Of a stretch of DNA of 64,000 bases, positions 9,334-58,591 are shown piece after piece. Position 1 is the first letter of the stretch. Each line of letters opens with the position of its first letter. Position numbers and translations under genes: made by a program. The notes beneath the pieces are model-generated. The model ran no database searches and had not been told where the DNA came from. It was given only the letters and a program-made list of their open reading frames with translations. The stretch is from assembly GCF_004795255.1 (NCBI RefSeq), contig NZ_SSBQ01000002.1, positions 2,172,001 through 2,236,000 of the forward strand, read 5' to 3'. The stretch is from Streptomyces sp. RKND-216. GTDB taxonomy: Bacteria > Actinomycetota > Actinomycetes > Streptomycetales > Streptomycetaceae.

Positions 9334-10035
9334 ATGACTTTCCTCCAGCTCATCGACTGCCGGACCGACAGGTTCGAGGAGATGAACCGGCTCATGGACA
9401 CCTGGGCCGAGCAGACCCGGGGCAAGCGGACGGCGACGCACGAGGTGGTGGGCCGGGACCGTTCGGACGGCGCGCACTTCGTCGAGATCGTCGAGTTCCC
9501 GTCGTACGAGGAGGCGATGCGCAACTCCGAGCTCCCGGAGACCGACCGGGTGTTCCGGGAGATGGTGGCGCTCTGCGACGGCATGCCCACCTTCACCGAC
9601 CTCGACGTGGTGCGGGACGAGACCTTCAACGCGGAGACCATGCGCCGCTTCTACGAGGAGGTCGCCGTCGGCGGCAACATCGACGTCATCGACGAGCTGT
9701 ACATCCCGGACCACATCGACCACGACGTGGCCAAGGAGGCGAACACGACCGTCGGCAGGGACGTGCTGAAGGCCGACATCACGCGCTGGCGGGAGGCGTT
9801 CGACTTCGACTTCACCCTCGACCGGCAGGTGGCCGAGGGGGACACCGTGGTGACGCTCTGGACGTGGCGGGGCCGGCACCGCGGCGACTTCATGGGCATC
9901 GCGCCCACCGGCCGGGAGTGCACCATGACCGGCACGACCGTGTGCCGGTTCCAGGACGGGAAGATCCACGAGAGCTGGTGGCACTACGACATCCCGCGGC
10001 TGATGCGCGAACTCGGCGCCGAGGCATCCGCCTGA
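9334..10035 (+). CDS. Two-domain protein: monooxygenase-like ferredoxin fold plus SnoaL-like domain
   Basis: 233 aa. Residues 1-95 look like a small dimeric alpha/beta-barrel domain (FLQLIDCRTDRFEEMNRLMDTW, FVEIVEFPSYEEAM). Residues 100-233 have the SnoaL-type ester-cyclase pattern: RFYEEVAVGGNIDVIDELY, a HIDHD motif, GRDVLKADITRWREAF, the conserved strand VVTLWTWRGRHRGDFMGIAPTG and WWHYD. The two families usually occur as separate proteins. A TAAGCT box at 9215-9220 and GGGAGG before the ATG suggest its own promoter with a leader of about 110 nt. No polyketide cluster is nearby, so a general hydrolytic or isomerase role is as likely as cyclisation. Confidence 0.75.
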   Translation: MTFLQLIDCRTDRFEEMNRLMDTWAEQTRGKRTATHEVVGRDRSDGAHFVEIVEFPSYEEAMRNSELPETDRVFREMVALCDGMPTFTDLDVVRDETFNAETMRRFYEEVAVGGNIDVIDELYIPDHIDHDVAKEANTTVGRDVLKADITRWREAFDFDFTLDRQVAEGDTVVTLWTWRGRHRGDFMGIAPTGRECTMTGTTVCRFQDGKIHESWWHYDIPRLMRELGAEASA

Positions 10036-10075
10036 CGGCGCCCGGGCACCCCTCACGGAACGGGTTCCGGGAACG

Positions 10076-10119
10076 GACGAGGCCCGGTGCACCCCTCACG
10101 GGGTGCACCGGGCCTCGTC
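10076..10119. terminator. Bidirectional terminator between the SnoaL-like gene and groEL
   Basis: A perfect 20-bp stem with a 4-nt loop lies between two convergent genes, 40 bp past one stop and 24 bp past the other. It can serve both strands. Confidence 0.9.
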
Positions 10120-10142
10120 ACCGGCTCGCGGAGCGGGCAGGC

Positions 10143-12227
<2,085 letters not shown>

Positions 12228-53277: not shown

Positions 53278-54345
53278 ATGGTTCGTCCACTCCGGCTCGG
53301 CGCGGCGGCAGCCGCGGCCGCGCTCCTGACCCTCGCGGGATGCGCCGGGAGCACCTCATCGGACGAGCCGGAGGACCGGAAAGCGGAACGCGCGCCGGGT
53401 GCGGCGGACACGGCCGGCGGCGAACGGGACAGCCCGTCGCCGTCCCCCTCCGCGCCCGACCCGGCCGCCGTCGACGCTGACGAACTCGGCGCCGTACCGG
53501 TGCTGATGTACCACCAGATCGTCGACGATCCGCAGAGCATCTACGACCGCACGCCCGAGGACTTCGAGGCCGAGCTGGAACGCCTCGCCCGCGAGGACTA
53601 CGTTCCGGTCACGGCCCGCGAACTGACCGGCGGCCGCATCGACATCCCTGCGGGCACCCACCCCGTCGTCCTCACCTTCGACGACTCCACCGTCAGCCAG
53701 CTCGCGCTCGACGCCGCCGGGAAGCCCGAACGGGACACCGCCGTCGCCGTCCTCCGCGACGTCGCGGAGAAGCACCCGGACTTCCGCCCGGTCGCCACCT
53801 TCTTCGTCAACGGCGACCCGTTCGCCGAACCCGGTGGGCAGCGCACGCTGGGCTGGCTGCACGACCACGGCTTCGAGATCGGGAACCACACCCTGCGGCA
53901 CACCACCCTCGGCACGGTCTCCGGCTCCGAGGTCCAGCGCGCCGTCGCCCGCAACCAGAAGGCCATCACCGACGCCCTCCCGGACGACGTCACCGTGGAC
54001 TCCCTCGCCCTGCCCAACGGCTCGATGCCGTCCGCCGCCGGGCTCGCCGTCGAGGGCTCCTCCGGCGGCACCGACTACCGGCACGCCGGAGTCTACCTGG
54101 TCGGCGCCAACCCCGCGCCGTCCCCCTTCTCCTCGGACTTCGACCCGGCGGCGATCCCCCGCATCCGCTCCCAGGGCCCGGACGGCCCCGACGCGAAATT
54201 CGCCTCCGCCGCCTGGCTCGACAAGCTCGCGGACGGCACCGTCGCCCGCTACACCTCCGACGGCGACCCGGACCGCGTCTCCTTCCCCGCCGACCGCAAG
54301 CCCTCCCTCGCCGCCCCCTTCGAGAACCGCGCCCAGCCGTACTGA
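53278..54345 (+). CDS. Polysaccharide deacetylase lipoprotein
   Basis: 355 aa. Signal with lipobox LTLAGC (Cys22), a Glu/Ala/Pro linker to about 65, then a NodB-type domain: AVPVLMYHQIVDDP, the DD motif VVLTFDDSTVSQLALD, VATFFVNGDPFAEP, and GFEIGNHTLRHTTL with the two zinc-binding His. Deacetylates a cell-surface or extracellular glycan, by family. It faces away from the hydrolase-like gene; the two may act on the same material. Confidence 0.92.
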   Translation: MVRPLRLGAAAAAAALLTLAGCAGSTSSDEPEDRKAERAPGAADTAGGERDSPSPSPSAPDPAAVDADELGAVPVLMYHQIVDDPQSIYDRTPEDFEAELERLAREDYVPVTARELTGGRIDIPAGTHPVVLTFDDSTVSQLALDAAGKPERDTAVAVLRDVAEKHPDFRPVATFFVNGDPFAEPGGQRTLGWLHDHGFEIGNHTLRHTTLGTVSGSEVQRAVARNQKAITDALPDDVTVDSLALPNGSMPSAAGLAVEGSSGGTDYRHAGVYLVGANPAPSPFSSDFDPAAIPRIRSQGPDGPDAKFASAAWLDKLADGTVARYTSDGDPDRVSFPADRKPSLAAPFENRAQPY

Positions 54346-54879: not shown

Positions 54880-55221
54880 ATGACGACGCACGGGGGCGAG
54901 TTCTCGGCGAGCGCCGCATCCATCGACGGCAGTTCACACCTGCTCCTCGAGGTCGCGGGACTGCTCCACGCCGGACGGATGGACGGCGAGAACGCGACGA
55001 TGTGCCGGGTGCCGCGGTCGCATCCCGAGGTGGCTCAGTCCGTGCACCGGTTCGCGACGTTCGCCCGCGACCAGTACGCCGACGCCGTCCTGCTGCTGGC
55101 CGCCCTCGCGACGAAGCTCGAGGCGACGGGCCACGCCTACGCCCGCGCCGACGAGGACTCCCAGCGGGCCCTGGACGGCGTCCTGCAGTCCGGGCGGCTC
55201 GTCGACCCCCAGGACAGGTGA
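54880..55221 (+). CDS. Small helical protein with type VII-type YxxxD signal
   Basis: 113 aa, WXG100/EspC-like in pattern rather than strong similarity. Two amphipathic helices (about 10-32, SASAASIDGSSHLLLEVAGLL; and 50-105 with FARDQYADAVLLLAALATKLE) flank a short loop. The motif Tyr87-Ala-Arg-Ala-Asp91 (YxxxD) after the second helix is the C-terminal secretion signal of type VII substrates. No signal peptide. ATG 54880 has GGGGAGA upstream. The next gene starts 5 nt after its stop, so they are probably made together. Confidence 0.7.
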   Translation: MTTHGGEFSASAASIDGSSHLLLEVAGLLHAGRMDGENATMCRVPRSHPEVAQSVHRFATFARDQYADAVLLLAALATKLEATGHAYARADEDSQRALDGVLQSGRLVDPQDR

Positions 55222-55226
55222 CCGCG

Positions 55227-56564
55227 ATGGCCCACCGAGCCGACGTCGCGTTCCTCGCCGACGCCAACCCGGCGCTCATCGAGCGCAACGCCGACGAGTT
55301 CGCGCGGCTGCACCGGCTCGCCGACTCGACGGACGACGCCTTCCTCAAGGCCGGCCGCGTCGACTGGGTCAGCACGTCGCAGCAGCAGTACGTGAAGCGC
55401 CTGGACGAGGCGAAGCAGCTCGTGGACGGCCTGTCCGCCGGTTTCCGCAAAGCCTGGCAGGCGCTGGCCGACTACGCCGAGGCCGTGACGACGGCGCAAC
55501 GCCACTTCGACGACGGCGAGTTCTCCGAACGGAAGCTGGCCGAGGTTGTTGCACGGGAGGCGACTCTGCTCACGCGTCTGACCGGTGCGGAGAGCCCGAT
55601 GCGGGAGTGGGAGGACCTGCGCGACTCCTCCGGTCTGCTGGACCGGATCGGCGAGTTCGGCGTCGACGTCGACGCGATCCGGGAGGACGCCGAACGCCAC
55701 TACCAGCAGGCGAACGACGCCTACGGGGACGCGCAGCGCGTCGAGTCGGAGGCACGAAGCCGCTGCCTCGCCGAGCTGCGGACGGCGTACGCCTCGCTCC
55801 CCGAGTTCCGTGGCGGCTCCGGCGACTCCGCCGAGATCCTGGGCAGCCTCGGCCTCCTCCGGGAGGAGACGCGGCAGGCCGCGGACGACCCCCACGCGCA
55901 ACTTCCCGGCACCGGCGTCAAGGCCGACGCGATCCCGTCCCTCAGCGACGCGCTCGTCGTGAACGAGAAGCTGGAGCGCATCCGGTCACTGGCGGCGGAA
56001 CACCCCGACGCGAAGGGCATCAGCTACCTCCTGCCCTCGGACTCGGAAGAGACCCTCCGGGGCTACGTCGACGCCAACAGCGCGCTGATCAGGGCTGCCG
56101 CCCACCACTCCGGGCTGCCGCCCGAGATGGTCGCGGGCATCGCGTGGCAGGAGGTCGGGGGCGCGCCGGCGGTGGTGGACGACGTGGCCGACGAGGTACG
56201 GCAGCTCGTGCCCGGGACCGGGGAGGCCGACCACACGTCGATGGGGCCGCTCGCCGTGCAGGTCCGGCGAGGCGCCGAAGTCCTCGGCTACGACCCGCAC
56301 CACCTCACCGACCACCAGCGGGCGCGCGTCGAGGAGGCGATCAAGGACCCGGCGCAGAACGTCTTCATCGCCTCCGAGTACCTCGCGCAGATGAAGGCGG
56401 AGAGCGGCTTCGCGGACGTGCCGGCCGAGCAGATGACACGTGCGCAGATGCAGGAGCTCGCCGCGCGGTACAACGGCGGACCCTACTGGCAGAGCGACGA
56501 CGCCCAGGCCTACGCGCGCCGCTTCGACGCCCGGCTGGACGAGGCGACGGCGCCGCTCCGCTGA
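55227..56564 (+). CDS. Type VII-signal protein with C-terminal lysozyme-like domain
   Basis: 445 aa without signal peptide or membrane helix. The N-terminal part (about 1-110: NPALIERNADEFARLHRLADSTDDAFL, DWVSTSQQQYVKRLDEAKQLVDGL, AWQALADYAEAVTTAQ) resembles the helical T7SS-signal domain of Streptomyces polymorphic toxins. A coiled-coil-like middle (145-260) follows. The C-terminal domain (about 280-435) has SLT-lysozyme landmarks: IRAAAHHSGLPPEMVAGIAWQEVGG with candidate catalytic Glu309, TSMGPLAVQVRRGAEVLG, and LAARYNGGPYW. I infer an exported peptidoglycan-cutting effector or adaptor; ESX core genes are not in the window. Confidence 0.72.
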   Translation: MAHRADVAFLADANPALIERNADEFARLHRLADSTDDAFLKAGRVDWVSTSQQQYVKRLDEAKQLVDGLSAGFRKAWQALADYAEAVTTAQRHFDDGEFSERKLAEVVAREATLLTRLTGAESPMREWEDLRDSSGLLDRIGEFGVDVDAIREDAERHYQQANDAYGDAQRVESEARSRCLAELRTAYASLPEFRGGSGDSAEILGSLGLLREETRQAADDPHAQLPGTGVKADAIPSLSDALVVNEKLERIRSLAAEHPDAKGISYLLPSDSEETLRGYVDANSALIRAAAHHSGLPPEMVAGIAWQEVGGAPAVVDDVADEVRQLVPGTGEADHTSMGPLAVQVRRGAEVLGYDPHHLTDHQRARVEEAIKDPAQNVFIASEYLAQMKAESGFADVPAEQMTRAQMQELAARYNGGPYWQSDDAQAYARRFDARLDEATAPLR

Positions 56565-56664
56565 CCGGCGCCGGGGGGCTTGGCAGCCGCCGGGACGGCC
56601 CCGTCGGGCCGCACGGCCGACGGATCGGCGGTGGATCTCGTGGAGTTCGCCGGCACACCTCCGG

Positions 56665-57522
56665 TCAGCAGCAGCCGGAGGCTCCCGGCAGCGTGCGCTT
56701 GTTGCGGGAGGCGGCGTTGCGGGCGGCGAGGTCGGCGTCCGCGGGGTAACCGACCTCCTCGAGGGTGAGGCCGTGCGGGCGGACGACGTGCACGGCGGAG
56801 TCGCGGACGCCCGCCGCAAGGACCTTGCCGGGCCATTCGGAGGGCCGGTGGCCGTCGCCGACGAACAGCATCGCGCCGACCAGCGACCGGACCATGTTGT
56901 GGCAGAACGCGTCCGCCAGGACGGTCGCCTCCAGGACGCCGTCGCGGTGCCGGACCCAGTGCAGCCGCCGTAGGGTGCGGATGGTGGTGGCGCCCTCGCG
57001 CTTCTTGCAGTAGGCGGCGAAGTCGTGTTCGCCGAGCAGCGCGTCGGCGGCGGCGTTCATCGCGTCGAGGTCCAGGGGCCAGTTGTGCCAGAGCACGTGG
57101 CCGCGGCGCAGCGGGTCGACGCCCCCGGGATGGTCGCAGACGCGGTAGGCGTAGCGCCGCCAGATCGCGGAGAAGCGCGCGTCGAAGTGGGGCGGCGCCT
57201 CGGCGACCCGGTGCACGCGGACGTCCATGGGCAGCCGTCCGGCGAGGCGGCGCAGCAGTTGGCCGCCCTGCTCGGCCCAGAGGTGGGCGGGAAGGTCGAC
57301 GTGGGCGACCTGGCCGCGGGCGTGGACGCCCGCGTCGGTGCGGCCCGCGACGGTGAGCGGTGGTGCGGCGTCCAGGCGCAGCACGACGCGCAGCGCGTCC
57401 TCGATCTCCTGCTGGACGGTGCGCTGCCCGCCCTTCTGGCGGGCCCAGCCGGAGAAGTCCTTGCCGTCGTAGCTCAGGTCGAGCCGTACCCGGACGAGGC
57501 CGGGCTCCACGTCGTCGCTCAC
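56665..57522 (-). CDS. truA: tRNA pseudouridine synthase A
   Basis: Modifies U38-40 in the anticodon stem-loop. 285 aa. [24 protein letters not shown] at the start, catalytic Asp in [33 protein letters not shown], and [20 protein letters not shown] 57522 was chosen at the conserved start. Lies next to rplQ in S. coelicolor; here two plus-strand genes intervene. It forms the right border of the accessory block. Confidence 0.96.
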
Positions 57523-57640
57523 GCACTCGATCCTCTCACCACGCCCCGGCGCGCGTGACGGCCCTCCGCGCCCGTTCCTTACTCGAGGGTAGGCATCGCC
57601 GGGAGTTCTTGCTATACAGGCCGTCAACAAGCCACGGCGG

Positions 57641-58591
57641 ATCACGACGACGCGCATCAGGGAGCCCAGCAAGGCAGGCAGCACCGTTCGGCCGGAGAAC
57701 GGAGCCGACGCACGGCCCCGCGAGGACCGCCTCGCGCAGCGGCTGCTCGACTCCTCCGCCCGGCTCTCCTACGACCCGGCCACCGAGGTCGACTGGGAGA
57801 CGCCCCTCGACGAGGACTTCCACGGCGCCAGCCCCGAGTGGAGCACGCTCTACGGGACGCCGTACTGGAACGAACTGACCGAGGCGCAACGCAAGGAGCT
57901 GACCCGGCAGGAGGCCGCGTCGGTGGCCAGCACCGGCATATGGTTCGAGATGATCCTCCAGCAGATGGTGCTCCGGGACATCTACGCCAAGGACCCGACG
58001 GACGAGACGGTGCAGTGGGCGCTCACCGAGATCGCCGACGAGTGCCGCCACTCCCTCATGTTCGCCCGCGGCGCGAAGAAGCTGCGCGCCCCCGCCTACC
58101 GCCCGCACCGCGTCGCCGTCGAACTCGGCCGCGCCTTCAAGACCGTCGCCTTCGGCGAGGCCGCGTACGCCGCGATCCTCGTCGCCGAAGAGGTCCTCGA
58201 CGTGATGCAGCGCGACTGGATGCGCGACGAACGGGTCGTGCCGTTCGTACGCACCATCAACAACATCCACGTCGTCGAGGAGTCCCGGCACATGAAGTTC
58301 GCCCGGGACGAGACCCGCCGGCACCTCGCGCGCACCGGCCGCACCCGCCGCACGATCCACGCCTTCGTCATCGCGGTCGCCGCGTACGTGATCGTCACCA
58401 GCATGGTGCACCCCGGGGTCTACGCGAACGCCGGCCTCGACGAGCAGCGGGCGGTCCGCGAGGCGAAGGCAAACGAGCACCACAAGGCGATGATGCGCTC
58501 CAGCTGCTCGGGCCTGATGGAGTTCCTCTCCTCCTGCGGTCTGCTCACCAAGCCGGCGCTGGTCTTCTACCGGCGCGCCCACCTCATCTGA
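57641..58591 (+). CDS. AurF-like diiron oxygenase lacking a canonical start codon
   Basis: 316 aa if read from ATC 57641. The AurF-type helical diiron core is evident: WYGT-type [51 protein letters not shown] and [15 protein letters not shown] (Glu/His metal ligands). Family members N-oxygenate amines or desaturate. The coding frame clearly extends upstream of GTG 57923, yet from the stop at 57590 to 57923 there is no ATG, GTG or TTG. ATC-ACG-ACG-ACG-CGC (57641) would read MTTTR, a plausible mutated or unusual start; TATACA at 57613-57618 is a candidate -10. Confidence 0.75.

Follow-up and report, generated by a model that had tools for sequence, protein, structure and literature searches.

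A conserved type VII secretion-type effector family of Streptomyces with a lytic transglycosylase-like domain, and its derivative in Streptomyces sp. RKND-216

Two adjacent genes of Streptomyces sp. RKND-216 raise the question of what a small helical protein and its larger, lysozyme-like neighbor do together, and whether these two make up the whole system. They lie in a stretch of 64,000 nucleotides, here called the window (C2:2172001-2236000 of a 5.61 Mb genome that is 99.89% complete). Gene A (54880..55221, + strand) codes for 113 amino acid residues and, judging by its translation, its PF10824 score and its place upstream of B, is an EspC/WXG100-like partner of type VII secretion systems (T7SS). 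Gene B (55227..56564, + strand) codes for 445 residues and, from its translation and its relatives, is a predicted T7SS-exported lytic transglycosylase effector. The genes are co-directional, with 5 nt between the stop codon of A and the ATG of B. These positions and this spacing, given in the original prediction, are borne out by the open reading frame coordinates and translations, as are the residues singled out there: YxxxD at 87-91 of A, and Glu309, SMGPLAVQ (338-345) and ARYNGG (413-418) of B. Both proteins also lack a signal peptide, as predicted; no transmembrane or signal-like segment is found, and the 19-residue hydropathy maxima are 1.07 for A and 0.79 for B.

The left neighbor of A is a polysaccharide deacetylase gene (53278-54345, PF01522), and the right neighbor of B is the convergent truA (56665-57684, PF01416). 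A cobalamin riboswitch (RF00174, 54494-54617, + strand, 87.2 bits) is located 262 nt upstream of A, and the sole open reading frame between them is 36 residues long. The riboswitch may control A-B at this locus or may have lost its own gene. Control by B12 common to the whole family is rejected, since none of 27 other B loci scanned has a cobalamin riboswitch. At three of these 27 loci the sRNA scr4677 (RF02673) lies directly upstream of the genes (L075 4132-4362, L041 4111-4339 and L023 4164-4394, all on the - strand), a neighborhood that is possibly a shared insertion place.

A total of 48 proteins match A (its own included) and at least 307 match B at E<=1e-3 (own included, 8000 candidates scored), so the gene pair is not a product of chance; A is present upstream of B at all 79 loci with B. 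The PF10824 (EspC) score of the window protein A is 14.8 bits, below the curated cut-off of 23.5. This family is matched at E<=0.01 by 8 of 32 A relatives (best 3.7e-6), a count that still includes one row in the wrong frame, L009, which was excluded from the later alignment of 31. In that alignment the export-type motif YxxxD/E (residues 87-91, 55138..55152, + strand) is invariant, with Y87 and D/E91 each in 31/31 relatives. According to the available text of PMC9600955, YxxxD/E is required for export in every tested T7SSa case, and DUF3130, the partner of LXG, carries an equivalent FxxxD. The database names of some relatives, which are abbreviated, include 'ESX-1 secretion-associated' for A, and 'WXG100 family type VII secretion target' and 'lysozyme family protein' for B. 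NCBIfam gives no match for either protein, and no PE or PPE domain is matched in either at E<=1.

The N-terminal region of B (residues 14-93, 55266..55505, + strand) is T7SS_signal-like through PF21725 matches in relatives that fall below the cut-off. PF21725 is found at E<=0.01 in 16 of 37 members of the B family; the window protein is not among them and gives no match at E<=1. The relative P0007 scores 25.8 bits against a cut-off of 27, all five B proteins with bits shown lie below that cut-off, and a precomputed PF21725 label is attached to 6 of 120 B relatives among the matches listed. A WxS/G motif (residues 47-49, 55365..55373, + strand) is conserved throughout an alignment of 55, with W47 in 55/55 and residue 49 either Ser (49) or Gly (6) in 55/55.

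The C-terminal part of B is assigned to an SLT / lytic transglycosylase domain (about residues 287-428, 56085..56510, + strand) by PF01464, by its relatives and by profile comparison. PF01464 (SLT) matches the window protein with 21.6 bits, barely over the cut-off of 21.3, with the best stretch at 367-420; the domain alone scores 25.3, the relative P0039 reaches 30.8 bits across residues 287-428, and 31 of 37 family members match at E<=0.01. The candidate catalytic acid E309 (56151..56153, + strand) is invariant together with S338, G340, Q345, Y415, N416 and G417, each in 55/55. In an hhalign comparison of B with 28 SLT-family domains from relatives (P 1.4e-4, probability 52%), Glu309 falls on the Glu of YQES in ordinary lytic transglycosylases and YNGG on YNAG, and the stretch SMGP...AEVLGYDP is left unaligned. 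By eye, SMGP..Q resembles the GLMQ-type motif of these enzymes. A profile search of the PDB with the SLT region gives no solved structure by sequence, just histidine ammonia-lyases and one small NMR-type entry at E>=0.1, and the search with whole B gives coiled-coil and designed look-alikes and nothing else. The phage family phrog_11932, of unassigned function, matches residues 283-418 with E 5.5e-10.

At one locus (L129) an RHS protein begins with a PF21725 domain (311.6 bits) which the N-terminus of B resembles, and at another (L131, 452-9106) residues 2716-2871 of a 2884-residue RHS protein are a relative of the SLT domain of B (E 4e-34). The C-terminal tip of RHS proteins is the place of the toxin in polymorphic toxins, and a B-type SLT domain at this tip supports a toxin position for the domain of B. 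SLT matches like that of L131 are also present in G325 and G258.

Among 392 genomes of the genus, at least 42 contain full-length B and 351 contain EccB. At most 4 candidates were scored per genome in both searches, and for B, matches inside proteins of about 280-3152 residues were set aside as other proteins. EccB is present in 42/42 genomes with full-length B (Fisher two-sided p=0.014, lists compared by eye), which is supportive only, because the genomes share ancestry. The source genome has one EccB, at C2:1212904, and B at C2:2227227, a long way from the ESX core. The named relatives come almost entirely from Streptomyces, a few loci being named Microtetraspora, Goodfellowiella, Streptoalloteichus and Saccharopolyspora. 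B is nearly complete on two Streptomyces plasmids (58% and 47%); on two Serratia plasmids the match, at 31%, covers residues 280-425 only. The predicted T7SS partner and substrate with an SLT/lysozyme-like C-terminus finds support at the sequence level in the PF10824-like A, the PF21725-like B, the accompanying EccB and the position of Glu309 on the transglycosylase Glu. B is very probably exported via ESX and, with equally high confidence, a wall-lytic enzyme. ESX-4 near truA is a mycobacterial-type neighborhood, and a remnant of such a locus was considered for the genes beside truA. It is rejected, EccB being elsewhere and the truA match being seen at the window locus only, among loci that mostly reach 1.5-5 kb to each side.

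The family has a third gene, C. The public loci studied were the best 80 of 107. B is full or runs to a contig edge in 79 of them and is broken in the remaining one (L094); G001 and L086, which stop at a contig edge, were left out of the counts. C lies directly downstream of B in 71 of the 78 loci where the contig continues, so the locus described originally as a two-gene module belongs to a family whose form is three genes. In the window the place of C is the gap between B and the truA stop (56565..56664, + strand), which is 100 bp long, and the C HMM finds no match anywhere in the 64 kb. The earlier statement that no immunity gene follows is thus correct for the window and fails for the family. 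A-B-C is a real conserved T7SS-type effector family with a complete form of three genes, and the window holds a derivative without the third. A second kind of three-gene T7SS set is located at C2:2612-2614 kb of the source genome (L133); it consists of an EspC-like gene with PF10824 over the cut-off, a 317-residue WXG100 protein and a third gene of 199 residues without a Pfam match.

The set of C genes comprises 74 members, namely the 71 loci with L007, L010 and L013. In 71 of 74 the C reading frame begins inside the end of B, with an overlap of 4 nt in 49, and the proteins range in size from 96 to 145 residues. Three hydrophobic helices are seen in 68 of 74. In these, helix 1 is followed by a loop with a net negative charge in 61 of 68 and a positive one in none, and the loop after helix 2 is net positive in 68/68. 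By the positive-inside rule, this pattern of charges places the first loop outside; it often holds a PxGPWD-like sequence. No Pfam family claims C, with 17 scattered weak matches over 31 members, among them PF23778 Phage_holin_2, matched weakly by 2 of 31 (best E 0.0014). There is also a weak match of one C to a phage family annotated as 'membrane protein' (E 0.0037), and PADLOC gives a single weak match for one C protein (E 0.0087). Tandem C genes are found in L076, L078 and L163. Short open reading frames with three hydrophobic segments occur downstream of the L131 RHS gene, for example one of 127 residues at 9892-10275; none of them matches C.

From these features we infer export, enzyme activity, antagonism and immunity as follows. 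A and B would be a substrate pair of ESX (T7SSa), in which A binds the helical N-terminus of B; A would supply the YxxxD/E export motif and B the WxS/G hairpin, and the pair would leave through the ESX core. The SLT domain of B would cut the peptidoglycan glycan strands of neighboring cells. C, as a three-helix membrane protein with its acidic loop on the wall side, would protect its bearer from B. The window copy would be a derivative from which C has gone, one C being kept elsewhere in the genome in a complete paralogous module. Taken as a whole chain, an ESX-exported, wall-degrading antagonism effector of the T7SS polymorphic-toxin type is slightly favored. The part of it in which B is antagonistic and C confers immunity is by itself reasonably probable.

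The fate of C where B is broken bears on this proposal. The set of broken or truncated B comprises 25 loci (L164-L184, L185-L187 and L094), including L185 and L186, the short fragments of which may be other genes. L016 and L164 of genome G025, which share a strand and are separated by 9.3 kb, were counted as one locus. C is open and adjacent in 22 of the 25, the exceptions being L185, L186 and L094, while A is intact in only one, that of G025. There, L016 has intact A and B residues 2-94 without C, and L164 has B from residue 92 followed by C; the A-B locus has apparently been split by an insertion. L168, L169, L174 and L177 match L031, L062 or L043 on both flanks, which indicates that B decayed in place. 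A one-protein search for C in 199 genomes gives 38 matches in 29 genomes. Full B is the neighbor of 14 (two of them a tandem pair) and broken B of another 6; around the remaining 18, neither A nor B occurs within 5 kb. Of these orphans, 14 have their full length without interruption, the other 4 being partial, weak or interrupted; the orphans in L155, L156, L158 and L160 occupy the same chromosomal place as A-B-C loci, with both flanks matching. The pairwise dN/dS of C, over 35 such loci and for pairs with an identity of 55% or more, is 0.18-0.64, with part of the history predating the loss of B. The retention of C, like its linkage to B, the gene structure, the motifs and the domain relationships, is read directly from the sequences. 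C kept where B is broken, together with orphan C, suggests that C behaves like an immunity gene. However, deletions from the 5' side would remove A and spare C without selection, which biases the retention counts.

The window copy shows the opposite arrangement, an intact B without C. In a tree of 84 B proteins it groups with P0003, P0004 and 21 located loci (clade support 0.997). C is present in 21/21 of these loci, so it was lost on the window branch or just before. The complete A-B-C paralogue of the source genome (C2:958536-960237) has a B that is 55% identical to the window B and holds the only C found in that genome, with 150 candidates scored per genome. A transposase-like open reading frame, recognized by inspection, lies close upstream of it (L013 41-754). 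Intact B without C occurs in three lineages: five related species (L044, L048, L049, L056 and L095, with gene neighborhoods similar by inspection), a pair of species (L087 and L088) and the window. C-less B arose at least two times besides the window. In the seven other genomes with C-less B, again with 150 candidates scored per genome, C is clear in two (G416, G418), is represented in G417 and G421 by no more than a weak partial match or one with a stop codon, and is not found in G419, G420 and G422. Such persistence of C-less B, in some genomes without any C found, weakens the simple immunity reading. The TelC/TipC precedent may offer a way out of this objection: in the available text of PMC6193138, TelC producers without TipC grow normally in liquid monoculture, the T7SS carrying the toxin past the inner wall zone.

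C-less B could also point to a role in the producer. Exported B might open or remodel the producer's own wall in the manner of EssH, with C anchoring or restraining it. T7SSb secretion depends on EssH, a dedicated wall hydrolase (available text of PMC13059805), C-less intact B is spread across five related species with similar neighborhoods, and the window B without C still has every invariant residue; all of this is compatible with such a role. However, the occurrence of B in 42 genomes against 351 for EccB indicates that ESX does not need B, B is far from the ESX core in the source genome, and many loci have retained C next to a broken B, which makes this role unlikely. A housekeeping role was originally deduced from the missing immunity gene, an argument countered by the presence of C in the family (71/78), the patchy occurrence and the decay.

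A little less likely again is that C has no part in immunity and is a small membrane protein with an independent function, linked to B through shared export or expression. Orphan C under purifying selection and C-less B do indicate that the two can live apart, but the start of C inside the end of B, its place after B, and its being left repeatedly behind a B stub speak for a closer connection. A holin-endolysin-like lysis pair, possibly of phage origin, in which C lesions the membrane, releases B and the producer lyses, would account for a small multi-helix membrane protein adjoining a wall-lytic enzyme and for the PF23778, phrog_11932 and phage 'membrane protein' matches, but it is very improbable, given that C stays open after B is broken (22/25) and persists as an orphan, as is not expected of a harmful holin, and that B has T7SS signals and the partner A. 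At the thresholds used, neither the 50,697 phage records nor the viral contigs contain a relative of B, and a phage or plasmid lysis gene was rejected as the main reading.

With antagonism as the preferred reading, A-B-C offers a testable Streptomyces T7SS effector, with an assayable enzyme, a motif-bearing partner and a candidate immunity gene that occurs with and without the toxin. Although EccB, the marker of the ESX core, is present in 351 of 392 genomes of the genus, none of the literature matches listed presents, by title or abstract opening, a Streptomyces T7SS effector with demonstrated action against other bacteria. Likewise, no paper on the A-B-C family was found by title or abstract opening among the matches listed, which are mostly outside subscription journals. 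Protection by C, if real, would reveal how a Gram-positive cell can shield its wall from a glycan-cutting enzyme delivered by a T7SS, something named as not yet found in the available text of PMC6193138.

Among known systems, the soluble lytic transglycosylases (PF01464) resemble B in the alignment of Glu309 with the YQES Glu and of YNGG with YNAG. Unlike them, B has no signal peptide, has Val instead of Ser after the Glu, and contains the unaligned SMGP...AEVLGYDP stretch. In PE/PPE and EsxA/EsxB pairs the YxxxD/E and WxG-like motifs are split between the partners, one on each, and A-B is arranged in the same way; unlike PE/PPE, A and B match no PE or PPE domain. Protection factors are also known for the secreted bacteriocins lysostaphin and zoocin A.

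The LXG modules of T7SSb, for example lapC1-lapC2-telC-tipC, are similar to A-B-C in several respects (available text of PMC9600955 and PMC6193138). They have a small helical partner with an FxxxD/YxxxD-type motif, an effector with an N-terminal export domain and a C-terminal wall-acting enzyme, and membrane-anchored immunity with orphan immunity genes, to which C would be the counterpart; TipC itself is membrane-anchored, and orphan tipC genes exist (PMC6193138). However, the hosts of A-B-C have T7SSa (ESX) and there is one EspC-like partner, B has a T7SS_signal-like domain in place of LXG and an SLT domain in place of the lipid II phosphatase, and C consists of three helices without a large soluble domain. 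A 2023 review of T7SSb, in its passages on peptidoglycan, names TelC (lipid II phosphatase) and no toxin that cuts peptidoglycan. EssH of S. aureus T7SSb (available text of PMC13059805) is a peptidoglycan hydrolase tied to T7SS, as B is predicted to be. EssH carries a signal peptide and a CHAP domain, its gene accompanies those of the T7SS, and secretion requires it, whereas B is an SLT protein without signal peptide, unlinked to T7SS genes and accessory.

The actinobacterial T7SS polymorphic toxins, with PF21725 and RHS (PMC3482391), are related to B through the RHS head of L129 and the RHS tip of L131. The available text of this 2012 survey predicts FlgJ-like peptidoglycan-cutting toxin domains; the word 'transglycosylase' is absent from its first 300,000 characters, and the index counts one in the whole paper. 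Unlike the RHS polymorphic toxins, B is compact, has no RHS repeats and is provided with its own partner A.
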